Part shown: one piece after another, positions 4,085-41,784 of the stretch
How positions within the stretch are numbered: the stretch's first letter is position 1
Layout of the letters: each line of letters opens with the position of its first letter
Program-made: the position numbers and the translations under genes
Assembly (NCBI GenBank): GCA_028289815.1
Contig: JAPYNQ010000007.1
Span: 1-41,784, forward strand
Length of the DNA stretch: 41,784 nt
Direction of reading: 5' to 3'
Source of the DNA: Gammaproteobacteria bacterium
Lineage (GTDB): Bacteria > Pseudomonadota > Gammaproteobacteria > JAJDYQ01
Notes under the pieces: generated by a model
Told to the model about the DNA's origin: nothing
Databases searched by the model: none
What the model saw: the letters and a program-made list of their open reading frames with translations, nothing else

Positions 4085-4963
4085 TTATGCGCGTTTGTTC
4101 GACGCGACGTACAGCAGGGTAGTGATCTGTTCAGAGACCAAGCCGATCATAAATACCAGCATGGCGACCACGAACAACAGCAGTCCCATATTGGTGAATC
4201 TTCCATCTGTCAAATAGGTGTAAAGATAATATGAGCTACCGAGGATAAAGCAGAGCAGAGAGGCAGGGGCAAATATCTTTAAGGGTGAGTACAGTGCGCT
4301 GATTTTGAAAATAATAACGAAGAAGCGAATGCCGTCTTTTATCAGGTTGATATGACTTTTACCTGAGCGTTTGCCGGCTTTTATCGGTATGTAGGTAATA
4401 GTCTTGCCGCTTCGGGAAAGCGCCATAGTTATGGTTGTGGGATAGGAAAATCCATTCGGCAGCAGATATAGAAATGCCCTGAAATCGTCGGCACATACGG
4501 CGCGAAAACCCGATGTCAGATCTTTGATTGACTGGTTTGTTAAATAACTGGCAAGCCTGTTGTAGATAAAATTTGCTATGCGGCGAAAAAGGTTGGCATG
4601 AGTAGATGAATGCCGGGCACCGACCACCATGCTGTAATCTTGGTTGAGCTTTTCAATCAGCCCTGGAATATCTTCCGGACTGTGTTGACCATCAGCATCC
4701 ATGAATATGAATACTTCACCGGTTGCTGCTCGCGCGCCCGCCTTGACTGCAGCACCATTACCCATGGGATGAGGATGGTTGATAACTTTATCGGCATAGT
4801 CTGCCGCGACTTTCCCGGTATTGTCCGACGAACCGTCATTGACAACGATTAGTTCGGCACCACCCAGAATATTTCTGACGGCAGGCAGTACCTTGTCCAA
4901 TCCCGTTGCTTCATTTTTCGCAGGGATGATGACACTTATCATAGCATCACTGATTTTGTTCAT
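4085..4963 (-). CDS. GT2 glycosyltransferase, polyprenyl-phosphate sugar synthase type
   Basis: A 292-residue protein with an N-terminal GT-A domain: ISVIIPAKNEA at the start, VNDGSSDNT with Asp43, and the metal-binding MDADGQH at about residues 88-94. Two C-terminal transmembrane segments follow (about 225-250 and 258-285). This layout is that of DPM1/GtrB-like enzymes, which load a sugar from a nucleotide donor onto polyprenyl phosphate at the cytoplasmic membrane. Such a product is the donor used by GT-C enzymes, and two GT-C-like genes lie immediately upstream on the same strand. It therefore probably supplies their substrate (inference). The sugar cannot be read from the sequence. An internal Met at residue 8 is an alternative start, and neither start has a convincing Shine-Dalgarno sequence. 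Confidence 0.88.
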   Translation of the reverse strand: MNKISDAMISVIIPAKNEATGLDKVLPAVRNILGGAELIVVNDGSSDNTGKVAADYADKVINHPHPMGNGAAVKAGARAATGEVFIFMDADGQHSPEDIPGLIEKLNQDYSMVVGARHSSTHANLFRRIANFIYNRLASYLTNQSIKDLTSGFRAVCADDFRAFLYLLPNGFSYPTTITMALSRSGKTITYIPIKAGKRSGKSHINLIKDGIRFFVIIFKISALYSPLKIFAPASLLCFILGSSYYLYTYLTDGRFTNMGLLLFVVAMLVFMIGLVSEQITTLLYVASNKRA

Positions 4964-5015
4964 GGCACCATGTCTTATTAGGATGTACTCTTATTTTAGA
5001 GCAATTACATGCGGC

Positions 5016-6985
5016 TTACATCCGGTTTATGCGCGGCTGGTTCGTTTTTCGTTGTTGATTTTTCTGAATCATTTCTCCAAATGCATTAATCGTATCAATA
5101 TGTAATTTTACATTAAGTCGGCTGAATGTTTTCGGTATGTCATCAAGTATGATTGTTGCTTCCTGGTAGAGTCTCGCCGATATCAGGTAGCTTGCCTGCA
5201 GTAGCCTGATATCCAGGGTAGGCTTGTAGGTGTATGCCTGTTCCAGGCTATCCATCGTCTTTTGCAGGTTGCCCCGGGATACGAAAATACGCGATTCCAT
5301 GCGGTGTATATGGTGCCTGTTCCATAGGTCTGTATGCTTAAAGCCCGGCGCTTCCTTGATCCTGTTCAATAGACGATGAAATGATTGAATATTCAGGCTC
5401 TCAGGGCACTTTTCATCATAGGCATAAGTTTCCAGGCTGGTCAGTGCTTCCGAAAGATGTCCATAATAACTGGCCTGTTTCAGTTTTTTGAGTGCCTCGT
5501 TGACTCTTACGGGGTAATCATGCTTGTCAGGCACTGCAAAATAAAGCAGGGTGAGGATTGAAGTGGCGCTGTCACCTCTGTTTTTATACAGATAATTTAC
5601 ATGGCGCTGTGCTGCCTGTTTGGCTTCCCGGGACGCCAGAGGATATAAAATTTTTCCGGCAAACAGGCGTGCCCTGATGGAGTCCGGGTGTTCCTCTACC
5701 CATACGGTGGCGGCCCGAACGGTGTCACCCCATAATGACGCATTCGATAGAGACAGTGTTGCTGTTATAGCGATATAGATGCCGAGAAAGGTATAGGCGT
5801 ATCGGCGGTGACGGGTGGGAGTCCGGTATAAAAAGCAGACCACGCTGATCAGTATGCCCAGCATGGGTAGATAGTTTCTGTGCTCAAAGTAAAGCTACCA
5901 GGGGTAGCACGGTAGATTCCATTAAGTGCCCGGCATAAAACCAGAGTATGGCAAATGCCGCCAAGCGGATTTCATGTCTTCCGATAATCGCGATAACCGG
6001 CAGCAGAATAACCAACAGGACACTTATGAAGGTTGAGTCGGGTTCAAACAGGCTTCGGGATACAATAAAATCGTCATGAAAAGCACCGAGCCCGTTCAGG
6101 CGAGGTACAACGATTAACGACAGATAGTCAATCATCGCATGGGACTGGCTATACAGACGTTGGGGAAGATCAAAAGGGTCTGGCGGTATAGTAATCGCTC
6201 GAAAGCCCCATATATGTGATCAATATGATCAGCAGGGCTGCGGGTATAATGGCAAACAGGATTAACCAGTGCCTCAGCAGGGGTGTGCGTTCTTCAGCAC
6301 GGAAGAAAAAATACCCTGTGACAAGTATGTAGAGAAATACCAAGGCGGCATTTTCCTTGCTGTATATACCTGACAGTGTAAGCAACAGGATTAATATACT
6401 TAACAGCAGAGATTTTTTGATATTGCCTTCCAACAGAGATTGCCTGGCATAAAGCCAGGTAATGAGCGTAAGCAGGGTGAAAGTTGCGCTCAGAATGGTC
6501 ATGCGCTGAATAACGTAAAATACGGTTGACGCCTGCAGTGGATGTATCGCCCAGATCGTAGCGACTGTCATGGCGATGAAACCCGCTCTTTTATCTTCCT
6601 GCCTGACAGTCAGACAGGTCTCGCCTGCTGCCCGTATTAATTTCCATGTGAACCAGAATATGAGCACGCTGTTGAGTACATGCAGCAGCAAACTGGTGTA
6701 TTTATGGGGGTACGGATCGCTGGGCCAAGCATGGTCGTTAATGAAGAAGCTGGCCAGGCTGACCGGTCTTCCCGTCGGACCGGAGTCTCCCTCATAAAGA
6801 AAGGCCAGAAAGCGAATATGAATACTTTCATTCGCCCATTTCTTTAATGCACCAAGGTTAGCATCGTCATCAAACAGAAAGGGTCCGTACAATCCAGGAT
6901 ATAAAATGTAGATTGTCAGTGTAACCGGAAGGAATATCCACAATATTGAGTAGCCTATAGAGGTAGTGAAGGCTTTCTGCGGCAT
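5016..6985 (-). pseudogene. TfpW/TMTC-like membrane glycosyltransferase, broken by two +1 frameshifts
   Basis: Three consecutive minus-strand reading frames (6170..6985, about 5884..6135 and 5016..5864) join into one protein of about 655 residues. The joined protein aligns end to end with the intact 644-residue neighbour at 7033..8967. The first break is near 6170-6175, where the coding strand reads CCCTTTTGATC: removing one T restores RPFDLPQRL, matching RNFTLEERL in the paralogue. The second is near 5890-5895, at GCTTTACTTTGAG: removing one T restores VAYFEHRNYLP, matching EIYFEHRNYLP. The N-terminal part keeps GPFLFDDDANL, SGPTGRPVSLASF and several membrane segments. The C-terminal part has helical repeats resembling TPRs. 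Both lesions are an extra T in a T run, so base-calling error is as likely as real decay. If intact, it would be a second GT-C-like pilin glycosyltransferase. Confidence 0.82.
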
Positions 6986-34277: not shown

Positions 34278-34629
34278 ACCATTTCCGGTATGGACAGTTG
34301 CCGCTTCGGCCGGTGATATACCGCCAAACCATTTGTTGTGATAGAGTTCACAAAACACAGAATTTTTATGTAAACATGGCCTTGCGCCCGAATTTTCGGG
34401 TTGATCGCAGGCACTCTACAAGGTTTAATGCCAAGGCACGAAAAAACCGGGGGGTAACCAGATGACAACGGCATCAGGCGGCACGCCGGTGTTACAACCG
34501 GCATATCTTGTACCCGACAGGAGGCCGTCTGCTCCTGACGGAAGGGCTTGCGAAATGCCCGGGCATACGCTTGAATGGAAAATATCAGAGTTGCAAAAAG
34601 GCAGCCGACCGCCAAAGGAGATGAGTTAA
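34278..34629 (+). promoter_or_regulatory. Regulatory region and structured leader of the giant adhesin gene
   Basis: This 352-base gap has no gene. It holds a CRP-like palindrome, a plausible -10 (TAAACA near 34371) and then about 245 nt of likely leader. Several dyads lie in the leader: GCCGG-TGTTACAA-CCGGC near 34485, CAGGAG-GCCGTCTG-CTCCTG near 34517, and GGGC/GCCC near 34543. I could not match it to c-di-GMP or another riboswitch class. AAGGAG (34615-34620) is the adhesin ribosome binding site. Confidence 0.45.
34337..34352 (+). promoter_or_regulatory. CRP/Vfr-type binding site
   Basis: TGTGA-TAGAGT-TCACA is a perfect TGTGA-N6-TCACA palindrome, the CRP consensus core. If transcription starts near 34383-34386, the site is centred near -40, the position of class II CRP activation. 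The regulator itself is not in the window. Confidence 0.6.
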
Positions 34630-37600
34630 ATGTACTTAACAATCACGAAAACCACCGAGCACGTTATGCTGCAACTTGATAAAGCCCTGTCGGGCATCCG
34701 TTCGGTCGTCCGCCGAACGCGCTTGCGTGACCGGCAGCCGGTCCGCCGGTGGTGCAGTCGTGGCCTGCCCAATCCGGATTCACAGCCGGCTCGGCCCCGA
34801 TACACCCGGACACCATCTCCCCGCAATCCCGTCTTCCTTCCCCGTTATCTGTTGTCTGCTGCCCTGTTCCTGCTGTTGCCGGCAGCCACCCCGGCCCTGG
34901 CCCAAAACACGGTCTCGCTGTCGGTCAGTGCCGATTCCATTACAGAAGGGGAGGATCCCCTGATCATTACCGCGACGCTCGACAGCCCTAACACCACTGG
35001 CGGTATTTTGATCATTCCGTTGCAGCTCCGCGGTTCGGCCAGCACGGTGCGGCCGAGCGACTACACCCTTGCCCCGATGATCGAGATTTCCCGTGGTGCC
35101 AGCGCCGGCACGACCACCTTTACAATGACGAGCGACGAGGATGACGAACCGCGTAGGACCGCTACCGTTGAGCTGGGTAGTCCGCTGTTGGGAGGATTGA
35201 CCGCCGGAGACCCGGACCACGTCACCATTACCCTCATTGATGATGACCCGACGGTGGCCTTGTACGATATTGCCGACCCCCTCATTGGTGAGGTCCCGGC
35301 GGTCGGTCGTCCCAACAGTAACCGCACCAGAATCACCATTGACCTGGGCCGCCCCCTGGTGGCCGGTGAGGAAGTAACTATCCCTGTAGGGTTCTTTGGA
35401 GCAGGAGGTAACCGCGTTGGTTTCAGGATTGAACTGATTCCCGCTGAAGGCCAGAGCACCACCGTCAGTCCTCCGCACAGCATTAGTGTACCGGCTCTGG
35501 TCCTGACCGGTCCAACCGCACAGTTCGTAAACCTGAATTTCACCGCAATCGACAACGATGTTAATTCTGGTACTTTTTTTAGTAGAGTTAACCCTATCTT
35601 CTTTGGAGTAGAACATAATCTGGGTGGCTCCTTTACTCTGGGCCCACGTGGCGAAGGCGTTGTATCGATTTTTGATGACGAAGTGGGTCTCCCGCAAATT
35701 TCTATATATACTACACTCGGTGGGGCTGGTGTACAGTCTCGAAGATCATTTCTGGAGTCGGAACCGGTGCCAGATGGACGGTCTTTGCGGGCAGTAGCGA
35801 CTATCTTAGGCGGTCGTATCTGGCACACAGGACTGGAAGTGCTCGTGGATGCTCAACAGCAAGGTAGCGTTATTCGGGGCCTGCGTCGAACCAATGCCAT
35901 TATTATCGGACAAGGTGAGGGATCAGATGCCGGTTCGTCCTTTATGCTTTCACTTTCTCCCGATGACGGTGATGATCAACCCAACGCGATACTGACGCTG
36001 CGTGTACAAGCAAGTAACCAATATGAGTTAGCCACCGCCGATCCTAACAATTTAACGGGGACAGGGAACAGTATTTTTCAGTTGCTTCGGGTCGACGACG
36101 ATACCACCACAGTAACCCTGACGGGTAGTGTGGACAATGTAGACGAAGGGGGCAGCAAAACATTCAGTGTCTCCCTCAACCGCGGACTGGTCAACGGCGA
36201 GTCGCTGCCTGTGCCGCTGGTTCTCGGCGGCAGCGCAACCGCAGTTAGCGACTATACCCTGACCTGTGCGCCCGCCATCGGCGTCACCTGTCAGAATCTC
36301 AATGGCGGCAGCGGTACCCCCACAGTAACCTTTACCGGGCCGTCATCCGGTTCAAGTGCGACCAACGTTACCCTGACGCTCAGTGCCCGGGGCGATGGCA
36401 TAGCCGATGCCGGCGAGACCGTCGAGATCGGCCTGGGGCCGCTGGATGAAAGCTCCGGTACCGGTCGAGGTGAGTTGTCACTAGGTCAGTTAGACGCCCG
36501 ACCTGATTTATTCCCCGGAGGTAGAGTCCCGCTGGGCGGTCCGATAGTCGGCGAGGGCAGCCTTGCATTCGTGATCCAGGCCGACATGTCGGCTGTGCCG
36601 GCCCTGCTGCTGTCATCGGGCGATACGCTGGCATTGACTGAGGGTGATACCGGCAGCTACACATTGATGCTGGCGACGCGGCCGACGGGGACAGTGACGG
36701 TAACGATTGCCAGCCCGGTTGACCTGATGCCGGATACCTCCCGCCTGACATTTACCACCGGCAACTGGAACCGCTCGCAGACCATCACCGTAACCGCCCT
36801 TCCGGACCCGGATATCGCCGATGAAAGCCTCACCCTCGGACACAGCGCCACCGGCGGCGGCTACAACGGGCAGATGGCAGACCTGACCGTGATCGTGGCA
36901 GACAACGACACTCCGGGTATAGCCATCGTGCAGACCGGCGCTGGAACCACCGTCAGCGAGGACGGCACCACCACCGACAGCTACACCGTGAGTCTGGATA
37001 CGCAACCCGCCGCCGATGTAACCGTCACGCTGTCTCGGTTTGCACAGACAACTGACCCCTTCAATGACTACATGCCTGATCCCGGCAGCCTGGTCTTTAC
37101 ATCAGCCAACTGGAACATGCCGCAAACCGTCATTGTGACCGGAGTAGATAATGATTTTAATACGAACCCCATTAATTCGAGTACTCCCGAGCCAAATTCG
37201 ATAGTAACAGCTCGTCATTCCTCTGCCTCAGCCGGCGACCCGGCCTACGATGACCTGATACTTGATATACAGGTCACCGTTATTCCCGACGACGACCGGC
37301 GAGGTGTCACCGTTGTTGTCCCGCCGGACGGCATCACGGTCCGTGACGACGGCATCATCAGCACAAGTACCTATACCGTGGTGCTGGATTCGCGGCCGAT
37401 TATTTTGGCGCAAAGAGCAATTCCTACTGTGATCATTGATATTCGTGCCGGTGACGGTATCCTCGTGAGCAGTGGTGGCGGGGCCGCTGCTGCCACGTCA
37501 GAATTATTATTCCTTGCCAATAACTGGGACCAACCGCAGACAGTCACGGTGGTCGGCATCCGTGACGACATTGATAATGTCCCGGACGACCGCACAGCCA

Positions 37601-40600
37601 CAATCACCCATAGTATCGTTTCTGGGGTTTTTTATGAGAGGAGATTGGCACCCGGTGCTGTGTCGGTGACAATCACCGACGACGACCAAGCCGGCCTGTT
37701 GCTGCGACCGGATTCGCTGCGGGTAACCGAAGAGTTGATGGCCTCCTATGCGGTGGCACTGGCAACGGAGCCGTCGGCGGCAGTGACGGTGGAGATTGGG
37801 GGTAATCCGGGCCTGGGCGACCTGCGGCTCAATGGCAGCACCTCCACGCTCACCCTGACATTCACATCGGCCGACTGGAGCCGGGAACAGCTCGTGACGG
37901 TGTCAGCAGGCAGTGACCCCGATACGACAAACGATCAGGTCAGCCTGCAGCACAGCGCCTCGGGTGCCACCGAATATGCCGGTTTGCCGCCACGGGAACT
38001 GTCAGTCACAGTTGTGGATAACGGCGTGGCCGGCGTATCGGTTGTGCCCACCGGCGCCGACACCGTTGTCAGCGAGGACGGTGTTACTGACAGCTATACC
38101 GTGGTACTGAACCGGCGACCCACAAACGAGGTCACCATCACAGCCACCGCCGACGCGGGTATTACCCTGGATACTAATCCCGATGTGGGCGGCGACCAGG
38201 GGAGTCTGACATTCACGACCACAAACTGGAACCAGCCGCAGACCGTGTTCGTGGCCGCTATAGATGACGACATTGACGATGGCGAAGCCCTCATGACAAC
38301 AATCCGCCATACCATTGCCTCTTCTGGTGGTGATTACAGTGCCGTGACCATTTCAGATCTGTCTGTAACGCGCACCGACAACGACACGGCAGGAGTGACC
38401 ATCACGGAAACCTCCCGCACCCCTGGGTCAGGTTCCGCTGTTACTGACACGGCTGTTATTGAGAGCGGACAGGTCAACTCTTTAGATGTGACAACAACCG
38501 ATACCTACACCCTGGTGCTTGATACGCAACCGAGCGGAAATAATGATGTGACCGTCGTGGTGACCTCGGGTGATGAGACGATCGCCACGGTACGCCCGGA
38601 AAACCTGATCTTCACCTCTTCGAGCTGGAATCGACCGCAGACCGTGACCGTGACAGGCGTTGATGACGATGTCGACAATACCGATCCACGCCAGGTGCGC
38701 CTGTTACACGATATTGCCGGACCCGGCGATAGTCAGGGCTATGTTCCCGGCCTGCAGTCCGATCTCACTGTTACCGTATTTGATGATGCTGACCGGCGCG
38801 GCCTGGTATTGACTGTGGATGGGACAGCGTTGATAGATACCCGGCCTGGAACGTTCGAGGGCATAGCCATGAACGAAGGCGAGACCGCGACTTACTCGGT
38901 TCGCCTGAGATCCCGACCGGTAACAGGCGAGGTCACGGTAAATATAGACATGACCGATCTGAGAGTAGATGGTCTGGAGCCGACTCAGACGGCAGGCCTT
39001 TTGGAACTGAGCACGGACGAACTGACCTTTACCACCGACGATTGGAACCAACCGCAGACCGTTACCGTAACCTCGCTGTCTAACCTCGGGAGTAGGCAGG
39101 TTCAGTTCAGGCTGTTTCATCGGGCGACAGGTTCGGCGGGCAGCGACTATGCCGCAACTGCCAATGTCGCGGCAACCATGCGGGTGGCGGTCAACAGTGT
39201 GTCGCGGATTAGCATCGTCGCCGATGCCCCGTCGTTGACAGAAGGCGGTACCGCCACCTTTACCATAACCGCCTCCCCCGTGCCGTCCAGAGGCCTGCCA
39301 GTCAGTCTCAGGGTTACAGAAACCGGCGGCGGTAATTTTGTGGATTCCACCAACGCAGGCGACCAGATGATTACCATTCCGACAGGCGGCACGGTTTCCT
39401 ACAGCATAGGCACCGAGGCTGATCGTGTTGACGAAGCGGATGGCACGCTCACGGTGACATTGCTGACTGGCAGCGGCTACTCATTAGTTGTCGGTTCATC
39501 CACGGCCACAGTCAATATCATGGATGACGACACAGCCAGCGTGACCATCACCGAGACAGACGGCGGCACCACGGTCAGCGAAGACGGTACCACCACAGAC
39601 AACTACTCTCTGGTGCTGACCTCGCAGCCGCTCGCCAGCGTAGCGATTACGGTGACTTCCGGCGATATAAACGCGGTGATCGTGGACGAAGCAGCCCTGA
39701 CCTTCACCAGCGACAACTGGAATAGGGTACAGACGATCACGGTGACCGGTGTCGATGATGATGTTGACAGCGAGCGCACAGCCACTATCAACCACGCCAT
39801 CAACAGCGATGTCGGCGGTGGATATATCACGACCCTGTCTGTTGACCCTGTGTCGGTTACGATTACTGACGACGACACGGCAGGAGTAACCGTCGCCGAG
39901 ACAGGCAGCGGCACCACGGTCAGTGAGGATGGTGGGACGACCGACAGCTACAGCTTGATGCTGACGGCACAGCCGATTGCTAATGTGGTTATTTCGGTAA
40001 CTCCCGGCGATGCGGCTGTGGCGGCCGTGGACGAGGCAACCCTGACCTTCACCAGCGACAACTGGAATAGGGTACAGACGATCACGGTGACCGGTGTCGA
40101 TGACGATGTTGCCGTGGAGCGCACAACACTCATCAATCATGCGGTCATGACCGGCGACGGCGGCACCTACACCGCCAGTCTGGTTATTGCCCCGGTTACC
40201 GTGATGGTCACCAACGATGACACGACAGGCGTGATGGTCAGCAAGGCCGCCGCTACGGTCAGTGAGGACGGTGGGACGACCGACAGCTACACCCTGGTGC
40301 TGGCTACGCTGCCGACCGCCGAGGTAGTGGTTACGGTCGCCTCCGCCGATACGGCCATTGCCACCGTCAGCACGACAACCCTGACCTTCACCACCACTAA
40401 CTGGAACAGGGTACAGACCATCACGGTTACCGGCGCAGACAACAACCGTGACGATGCCAACAACCGGCGTGCAACCACTATCACTCACACGGCACAATCC
40501 ACGGATACCGCTTACGATACCGACGATAGTCTGAGTATCAGCAATGTCTCTGTCACTGTCACCGACGAGGATGTGCCGGTACTGTCGGTGTCGGCGCAGG

Positions 40601-41784
40601 GCGACATTGCCCGTCTTTCAGAGGGCGGCTCAGCCACGATTATCGTCACATCGAACATCCCCGTTGACGGCGAGATTAACTTCGGTGCACCTGTCGCACC
40701 CGATGGCACAAGTGTCTCGATCACCAGTGCCGCAATCGGTAGTGGCGGGACTACGCAGACTTTTACGGTGACGTTTAATGGAGACGATATGGATGTACCG
40801 AACCGGCCAGCGACAATCAGCATCGCGGCCGGTTCCGGCTATACCCTCGGCACCCCCACCATTGCCCTGATCTTGGTGGATGATGATCCCACGACGGTGA
40901 CCCTGGCGGCGGATGACACGGATGCCTTACCCACAGGCGACACTAGGCAATTCACTATCACCTTGGGCCGCGACCTGATAGCCGGTGAAGAGCTGGTCGT
41001 ACCGCTGGTCTTTTCCGGCGACGCAATACGCAATACCGACTACAGCCTGGCCGGTGGGAGTGAGGCGGGTGTTACCTATGACTTTAATGCCCCTGCCGTG
41101 ACCCTCTCTGGTACGGGCACCGGCACGGTTCTGGCCGACGACCCGATGGTTGCCACCATCACCGTGACTGCGTCAAACACCACCCCCCGAACGCTTGAGA
41201 TTGATCTGGGTACGCTGGACGATACCACCGGCACCAATCTTGGCGGTGGTGCCCGAGGCACAGGCAGCCTGGATCTCAATCTTGTCGTCCCGGGCGTGAC
41301 CCTCAGCTTGACCAGTGTCACAGTCGCCGAACCCAATATAAACGGCGACTACACCGTGGTACTGGACACGGAACCGTCCAGCAATGTAGTGTTGACAGTG
41401 GAATCCGGCAATTTATCTGTGGCGACAGTGAGCCCGACAAGTCTGACTTTCGCACCGGTCAACTGGGATGATGTGCAGACGGTGACGGTGGTGGTCGTGG
41501 ATGACTCTGCTGACAATGTCGGCGATGAACGCACGACGATGGTCACACACACGATCACGACTGCCGATACCGATAATGACTACCCGGTCAGCCTGGATAT
41601 CGATGATGTCGTGGTGACAGCCACAGACGACGACGGCGCGAGTGTCGATATCAGCAAGCCGACAGTCACAATCAACGAAGGTGGTGGCACGGACACCTAT
41701 ACCATAGAGTTGGGCACGCAACCGGCCGGCAATGTGGAAATTACGGTGGAATCCGATACGCCGGATGCGGTCACGGTGAGCATA
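34630..41784 (+). CDS. Giant secreted Calx-beta-like repeat adhesin (3' end outside window)
   Basis: One uninterrupted frame from the ATG at 34630 to the window edge: 2385 codons with no stop. AAGGAG lies nine bases before the start, and an in-frame TAA directly precedes it. The N-terminus is unusual: about 70 mostly basic, Arg-rich residues, then a hydrophobic signal core and ALA-QN, predicting cleavage after residue 91. The rest is beta-strand repeats rich in Asp, Thr, Val and Gly. Some units are Calx-beta-like (VTLTGSVDNVDEGGSKTFSV, SEGGSATIIVTSN). Others carry LTFTSxNWNxxQTVTVTGVDDDVD followed by a TIxHxxxS strand, a VTVTDDDxAGV linker and VSEDGxTTDSYTLVL; I count eleven such NW motifs, the first near 36748 and the last near 41448. 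The DDD motifs suggest calcium binding. It probably mediates surface or biofilm adhesion. The export system is not visible. Confidence 0.9.
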   Translation, partial: MYLTITKTTEHVMLQLDKALSGIRSVVRRTRLRDRQPVRRWCSRGLPNPDSQPARPRYTRTPSPRNPVFLPRYLLSAALFLLLPAATPALAQNTVSLSVSADSITEGEDPLIITATLDSPNTTGGILIIPLQLRGSASTVRPSDYTLAPMIEISRGASAGTTTFTMTSDEDDEPRRTATVELGSPLLGGLTAGDPDHVTITLIDDDPTVALYDIADPLIGEVPAVGRPNSNRTRITIDLGRPLVAGEEVTIPVGFFGAGGNRVGFRIELIPAEGQSTTVSPPHSISVPALVLTGPTAQFVNLNFTAIDNDVNSGTFFSRVNPIFFGVEHNLGGSFTLGPRGEGVVSIFDDEVGLPQISIYTTLGGAGVQSRRSFLESEPVPDGRSLRAVATILGGRIWHTGLEVLVDAQQQGSVIRGLRRTNAIIIGQGEGSDAGSSFMLSLSPDDGDDQPNAILTLRVQASNQYELATADPNNLTGTGNSIFQLLRVDDDTTTVTLTGSVDNVDEGGSKTFSVSLNRGLVNGESLPVPLVLGGSATAVSDYTLTCAPAIGVTCQNLNGGSGTPTVTFTGPSSGSSATNVTLTLSARGDGIADAGETVEIGLGPLDESSGTGRGELSLGQLDARPDLFPGGRVPLGGPIVGEGSLAFVIQADMSAVPALLLSSGDTLALTEGDTGSYTLMLATRPTGTVTVTIASPVDLMPDTSRLTFTTGNWNRSQTITVTALPDPDIADESLTLGHSATGGGYNGQMADLTVIVADNDTPGIAIVQTGAGTTVSEDGTTTDSYTVSLDTQPAADVTVTLSRFAQTTDPFNDYMPDPGSLVFTSANWNMPQTVIVTGVDNDFNTNPINSSTPEPNSIVTARHSSASAGDPAYDDLILDIQVTVIPDDDRRGVTVVVPPDGITVRDDGIISTSTYTVVLDSRPIILAQRAIPTVIIDIRAGDGILVSSGGGAAAATSELLFLANNWDQPQTVTVVGIRDDIDNVPDDRTATITHSIVSGVFYERRLAPGAVSVTITDDDQAGLLLRPDSLRVTEELMASYAVALATEPSAAVTVEIGGNPGLGDLRLNGSTSTLTLTFTSADWSREQLVTVSAGSDPDTTNDQVSLQHSASGATEYAGLPPRELSVTVVDNGVAGVSVVPTGADTVVSEDGVTDSYTVVLNRRPTNEVTITATADAGITLDTNPDVGGDQGSLTFTTTNWNQPQTVFVAAIDDDIDDGEALMTTIRHTIASSGGDYSAVTISDLSVTRTDNDTAGVTITETSRTPGSGSAVTDTAVIESGQVNSLDVTTTDTYTLVLDTQPSGNNDVTVVVTSGDETIATVRPENLIFTSSSWNRPQTVTVTGVDDDVDNTDPRQVRLLHDIAGPGDSQGYVPGLQSDLTVTVFDDADRRGLVLTVDGTALIDTRPGTFEGIAMNEGETATYSVRLRSRPVTGEVTVNIDMTDLRVDGLEPTQTAGLLELSTDELTFTTDDWNQPQTVTVTSLSNLGSRQVQFRLFHRATGSAGSDYAATANVAATMRVAVNSVSRISIVADAPSLTEGGTATFTITASPVPSRGLPVSLRVTETGGGNFVDSTNAGDQMITIPTGGTVSYSIGTEADRVDEADGTLTVTLLTGSGYSLVVGSSTATVNIMDDDTASVTITETDGGTTVSEDGTTTDNYSLVLTSQPLASVAITVTSGDINAVIVDEAALTFTSDNWNRVQTITVTGVDDDVDSERTATINHAINSDVGGGYITTLSVDPVSVTITDDDTAGVTVAETGSGTTVSEDGGTTDSYSLMLTAQPIANVVISVTPGDAAVAAVDEATLTFTSDNWNRVQTITVTGVDDDVAVERTTLINHAVMTGDGGTYTASLVIAPVTVMVTNDDTTGVMVSKAAATVSEDGGTTDSYTLVLATLPTAEVVVTVASADTAIATVSTTTLTFTTTNWNRVQTITVTGADNNRDDANNRRATTITHTAQSTDTAYDTDDSLSISNVSVTVTDEDVPVLSVSAQGDIARLSEGGSATIIVTSNIPVDGEINFGAPVAPDGTSVSITSAAIGSGGTTQTFTVTFNGDDMDVPNRPATISIAAGSGYTLGTPTIALILVDDDPTTVTLAADDTDALPTGDTRQFTITLGRDLIAGEELVVPLVFSGDAIRNTDYSLAGGSEAGVTYDFNAPAVTLSGTGTGTVLADDPMVATITVTASNTTPRTLEIDLGTLDDTTGTNLGGGARGTGSLDLNLVVPGVTLSLTSVTVAEPNINGDYTVVLDTEPSSNVVLTVESGNLSVATVSPTSLTFAPVNWDDVQTVTVVVVDDSADNVGDERTTMVTHTITTADTDNDYPVSLDIDDVVVTATDDDGASVDISKPTVTINEGGGTDTYTIELGTQPAGNVEITVESDTPDAVTVSI
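39695..40110 (+). repeat. Near-identical tandem repeat inside the adhesin gene
   Basis: The 71 bases at 39695-39765 recur at 40040-40110 with one mismatch, an offset of 345 bp (115 codons). Similarity extends more weakly over the whole unit, and a third, more diverged copy starts at 40381. Identity at the DNA level, not just the protein level, points to recent duplication or gene conversion. Confidence 0.8.

Follow-up and report, generated by a model that had tools for sequence, protein, structure and literature searches.

A giant NW-repeat adhesin gene cut by a contig end, probably the 5' part of an autotransporter-type gene

The last part of the window encodes the beginning of a very long bacterial surface protein. 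Probably this is the 5' part of a gene whose product is a giant adhesin of type-Va-like autotransporter design, the barrel having been lost past the contig end. The window is the whole stretch of DNA that was analysed, 41,784 nucleotides, and it is also an entire contig (C67) of an assembly of 2.18 Mb in 89 contigs. The truncation of the gene is therefore a feature of the assembly rather than of where the window was placed. The gene is 5'-complete and 3'-truncated, and runs on the plus strand from 34630 to the contig end at 41784.

In the proposed arrangement, a long basic Sec signal peptide would carry the protein through the inner membrane, and a C-terminal outer-membrane beta-barrel would move the passenger out onto the cell surface. 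This passenger would be a rod of some 20 beta-sandwich domains, with at least 12 NW repeats of Calx-beta-like fold, probably stiffened by Ca2+ at acidic linkers. Such a rod may keep the distal domains off the cell, for attachment to host or neighbouring cells. We infer adhesion as the role of the protein.

An earlier note on this DNA described a stop-free plus frame here, and this is what is found: 2385 codons from an ATG at 34630, with zero stops. At the local base composition, the natural logarithm of the probability of finding no stop is about -83. A Shine-Dalgarno sequence, AAAGGAG (34614-34620, +), lies 9 nt upstream of the ATG, and the in-frame codon score resembles that of other genes. 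The frame is that of a real gene.

The note also took the many minus-strand frames over this gene to be shadows of its codons. On the opposite strand, 22 ORFs reach 60 codons or more, up to a maximum of 333. In 300 synonymous-codon shuffles that encode the same protein, the number was 22.5 ± 2.7 and the longest measured 244 ± 70 codons; the probability of a longest frame of at least 333 codons was 0.12. Both number and longest length match the shuffles, so the frames are shadows, as the note had it. Frame length is what speaks for genuine overlapping genes of up to 333 codons; against the shuffles such genes are hardly credible, and they were dropped as candidates.

The mode of export is best read from the sister genes. 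The genome contains a family of NW-repeat genes, nearly all of which are broken at contig ends. N-terminal halves are found on six contigs (C67 itself, C4, C71, C21, C13 and C46, the last with an interrupted frame), and C-terminal halves on five (C1, C16, C32, C56 and C78). The final segments of all five C-terminal halves, each about 475-490 residues long, are homologous. These segments are beta-barrels, and in all five NW genes with an intact 3' end they terminate in Trp or Trp-Gln. The Pfam Autotransporter cut-off (PF03797) was passed by two of the four sister barrels scanned, with E-values of 3e-11 and 4e-11. Because all five intact 3' ends are autotransporter-type barrels, the window gene most likely encodes the N-terminal portion of an autotransporter of type-Va-like design. 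By analogy with its sisters it probably carries a barrel too, its own C-terminus lying beyond the contig end.

With six N-terminal halves and five barrels, at least one half is without a known partner. There is an exact 95-nt overlap between C46 and C1, and the final 99 nt of C71 and C13 are identical; the contigs thus seem to have been broken within repeats during assembly. A search for exact overlaps between C67 and other contig ends found none with any barrel-carrying contig. Assigning the 3' half of the window gene by synteny was tried and rejected: in two genus-mates (G001 and G002), plsC precedes other genes, and no partner was found. On contig C32 (L042, 1-700), the frame is broken beside a direct repeat of the bases with which the contig itself begins; the cause is probably a fault of assembly and not a mutation.

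In both genus-mates, the gene next to plsC is not an NW adhesin. The adhesin gene at this position is therefore specific to the window's lineage, and its absence from same-genus genomes counts against the autotransporter reading. It also agrees with another explanation, in which the window gene is decayed or incomplete, its frame breaks soon past 41784, and it yields no functional anchored product. Broken NW fragments do occur in this genome, at 13709-14779 of C3, at 73893-74835 of C60 (with an in-frame TGA), and on C46; these are probably decayed copies or assembly errors. The window gene itself has 2385 intact codons, a good Shine-Dalgarno sequence, a gene-like codon score and conserved motifs in every unit, which makes decay improbable.

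The autotransporter reading starts with a signal peptide in residues 1-91, which includes a basic N-region of 73 residues. This N-region (residues 1-73; 34630-34848, +) is followed by the hydrophobic core and c-region (34849-34902, +), with cleavage probably before Q92. By a simple rule it is a Sec signal peptide: there is a basic region, a 12-residue hydrophobic window with a Kyte-Doolittle mean of 2.4, and ALA-Q. The signal peptides of the sister proteins share the LAQ/VAAQ ending. The earlier note spoke of some 70 basic residues. An N-region of about that length is there and it is net basic, but its residues are not all basic: residues 1-91 include 16 Lys/Arg and 4 Asp/Glu.

An N-region length of 73 residues is the most likely one, and whichever usable ATG, GTG or TTG start is taken, the length is at least 42. 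It is possible, if unlikely, that the long N-region is untranslated, and that the protein starts close to the hydrophobic core with an ordinary signal peptide; this would be compatible with the autotransporter reading. The codon-usage score of codons 1-70 is 0.03, versus 0.24 ± 0.10 for genes and -0.16 ± 0.09 off-frame. Lying between the two, the score leaves translation of the whole N-region ambiguous, and codon usage in this stretch is equal in two forward frames. Relatives of the region are also absent in the three genomes of the genus. Yet of the in-frame starts up to the hydrophobic core, codon 1 is the sole one preceded by a Shine-Dalgarno sequence; the alternatives at codons 13 and 32, and the TTG codons 75 and 83 inside the core, have none. 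Moreover, other NW proteins have long N-regions. One on a contig of G001 has at least 52 residues and a single possible start, and two in the sponge symbiont AqS3 have 61 and 57 residues (best start).

Taking the N-region as translated, a long signal peptide of this kind is uncommon. Roughly 10% of autotransporters have signal peptides of over 50 residues (PMC2805444, PMC8151025), and many of the long ones collected in PMC2805444 are without the conserved ESPR motif. Long ESPR-less signal peptides are in that sense already known for autotransporters (PMC2805444). Like ESPR-type extended signal peptides (PF13018), the one described here has a long basic extension ahead of an ordinary signal peptide, on a probable type V protein. 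It differs in that a Pfam search of residues 1-120 gave no match to PF13018, and in that the extension is well over the 25 residues of ESPR. The earlier note supposed that the long N-region may slow export or recruit a special pathway; slowed export would agree with a proposal made for ESPR (PMC8151025).

After the signal peptide come beta-rich units without the NW motif (residues 92-656; 34903-36597, +), which are LapA- and cadherin-like by weak, sub-threshold Pfam matches. The earlier note had counted at least eleven NW repeats in the protein, and a repeat HMM indeed gives 11 complete units, plus a twelfth that is cut at the contig end. All are on the plus strand. Repeats 1 to 7 are at 36598-36891, 36895-37239, 37282-37635, 37669-37977, 38008-38349, 38371-38742 and 38812-39165. 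The adhesin contains 8 literal NW dipeptides; the remaining NW-type units carry DW (repeats 4 and 7) or SW (repeat 6). Repeats 8 to 10 are at 39517-39843, 39859-40185 and 40207-40533, and repeat 11 is at 41290-41598. Repeat 12 (41620-41778, residues 2331-2383) covers HMM positions 2-55 of 109. About three further units without NW are interspersed among the repeats after residue 656. One is a Calx-beta/LapA-like unit (39208-39516, +), with a sub-threshold LapA match and a weak repeat-HMM match. Another two, at 40555-41289 (+), appear Calx-beta-like from their sequence pattern, and the first of these also has a weak repeat-HMM match. Adjacent units have a DNA identity of up to about 78%, and Tandem Repeats Finder detected no tandem array in the adhesin repeats.

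Of the 2294 residues of the mature adhesin (34903-41784), 3 are lysine (0.13%); in the housekeeping proteins of the window, lysine makes up 4.0%. This near-absence of lysine is common to the sister repeat proteins. Acidic residues number 302.

The NW unit is a repeat without a Pfam model. Whole-protein scans against Pfam, NCBIfam and PHROG gave no significant match for the adhesin. The Pfam Calx-beta family (PF03160) was not matched up to an E-value of 10, either by the whole protein or by eleven single NW units; the units without NW have LapA-domain matches below the Pfam threshold. PDB sequence searches with the repeat and with the barrel returned nothing significant.

The earlier note suggested predicting the structure of a repeat. 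An AlphaFold2 model of two units (NW repeats 8-9, using window repeats only) is all-beta and has a pLDDT of 72. The top PDB match in a Foldseek search with this model is NCX1 (E 3e-7), and CBD12 of NCX1 and of CALX1.1 are in the top fifteen. TM-scores come to about 0.4 when both domains are taken, which makes the match evidence for the fold of the unit and not for the angle between units. A single-sequence AlphaFold2 model of residues 1-480 was discarded as uninformative (pLDDT 36). The NW unit is thus predicted to be a beta-sandwich like the CBD of NCX, which is a Calx-beta-like fold. The note's term "Calx-beta-like" holds for this predicted fold, which matches NCX1/CALX, but a Pfam sequence match is absent.

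With the Calx-beta domains of NCX1/CALX (CBD1/CBD2), the unit shares the predicted fold, and acidic positions kept in loops and at unit junctions. Unlike those domains, with which identity is about 16-19%, the NW array is bacterial, extracellular and tandem. In 48 units of this genome's family, acidic columns (D/E/N) are conserved at the unit junction (0.95, 0.85 and 0.71), as are others that follow the NW strand (1.0 and 0.88). The junction columns fit Ca2+ sites, and from such columns we infer that Ca2+ may be bound.

Calx-beta and cadherin-like repeats are typical of T1SS adhesins, LapA and BapP among them (PMC12153261), and the adhesin has weak LapA-domain matches. This suits a giant adhesin of Bap/RTX type, exported by a T1SS, with a C-terminal RTX signal past the contig end. 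RTX/Bap adhesins, such as LapA, SiiE, BapP and MpIBP, are likewise tandem Ca2+-type beta-sandwich rods. They use T1SS, however, and the window protein has an N-terminal Sec-type signal peptide and sisters that end in barrels in five of five intact cases. Among the window proteins scanned (some small frames left out), there was no T1SS exporter, ABC exporter, membrane fusion protein or two-partner transporter. Export by T1SS therefore seems very improbable. An Rfam scan of the window found nothing.

The preferred type Va reading has its own misfits. A Sec signal peptide, a surface passenger, and a C-terminal barrel in each intact sister gene are as in type Va autotransporters (PF03797). The passengers known in type Va are either beta-helices, usually with an autochaperone, or alpha-helical globular folds (PMC5767081), whereas this one is a long array of Calx-beta-like sandwiches. 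A beta-helical passenger with autochaperone is common, though not universal, in type Va; sandwich repeats are found here instead, with NCX1 as best fold match. In addition, NW repeats are spread over many phyla, on proteins with differing ends. That they sit elsewhere on other anchors, for example C-terminal tails that close with a hydrophobic stretch and Arg, or likely T9SS ends (endings judged by eye), argues against autotransport.

The full design does exist in one frame elsewhere. In AqS3 (MEIF01; G047), which lives in symbiosis with the sponge Amphimedon queenslandica, contigs C164 and C178 each encode a long signal peptide, many NW repeats and a terminal barrel. These complete proteins are larger, at 4637 and 5504 aa, and their barrels are about 22-25% identical. 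On AqS3 contig C34, frames stay open for 9657 and 8232 codons and show NW repeats or matches to the barrel; they are among the largest in this analysis. Among 274 genomes of the class, homologous barrels turned up in 7. A pattern scan of the genome collection with the barrel gave 19 matches, none of which were confirmed.

Genus-mate G001 (JAJDYQ01, isolate jk18x34bins.42) comes from an Ircinia sponge metagenome, going by its name: jk18x denotes MAGs from Caribbean Ircinia sponges (PMC9531527). No NW repeats were found in G002. Because the relatives G001 and AqS3 are sponge-derived, the organism of the window is presumably a sponge symbiont too. Enrichment of Calx-beta in the symbionts of Ircinia is described in the literature as a eukaryotic-like feature (PMC9531527).

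Some members of the wider family are unusual in other ways. The sister N-terminal half on C21 (L048, 1-552, minus strand) has a CxxCH haem-c motif right after the signal peptide, followed by an NW repeat. From this sequence, an autotransporter tipped with a cytochrome c is possible; the PF13442 match (E 0.016) is below the cut-off. The combination of haem-c and NW units recurs in a different family, where a likely lipoprotein (L084 in genome G045, 4559-6400, +) carries three NW repeats together with a CxxCH motif. The barrels L116, L123 and L179, from an Ircinia cyanobacterial MAG and from Latescibacteria, are placed among proteobacterial barrels (support 98/94 and 95/95). This is either transfer between phyla or mis-binning.

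Calcium has been described as dispensable for the stiffness of autotransporter adhesins, in contrast to RTX adhesins (PMC7493085). In the literature searched, which did not extend to subscription journals and preprints, no paper was found that describes autotransporters with Calx-beta passengers. Passengers made of Ca2+-type sandwiches would be unusual among type Va-like autotransporters. If true, a calcium-type rod on an autotransporter barrel would merge the RTX and autotransporter designs, and would test what drives passenger export. Tentatively, sponge-associated bacteria may have a class of giant autotransporters in which Calx-beta-like folding, triggered by extracellular Ca2+, would replace the pull of a beta-helix or autochaperone for passage through the outer membrane; the long ESPR-less signal peptide would then slow export to match. 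Since this 2.2 Mb genome alone holds six or more N-terminal halves, and relatives come from sponge metagenomes, the family is a candidate host-attachment system.
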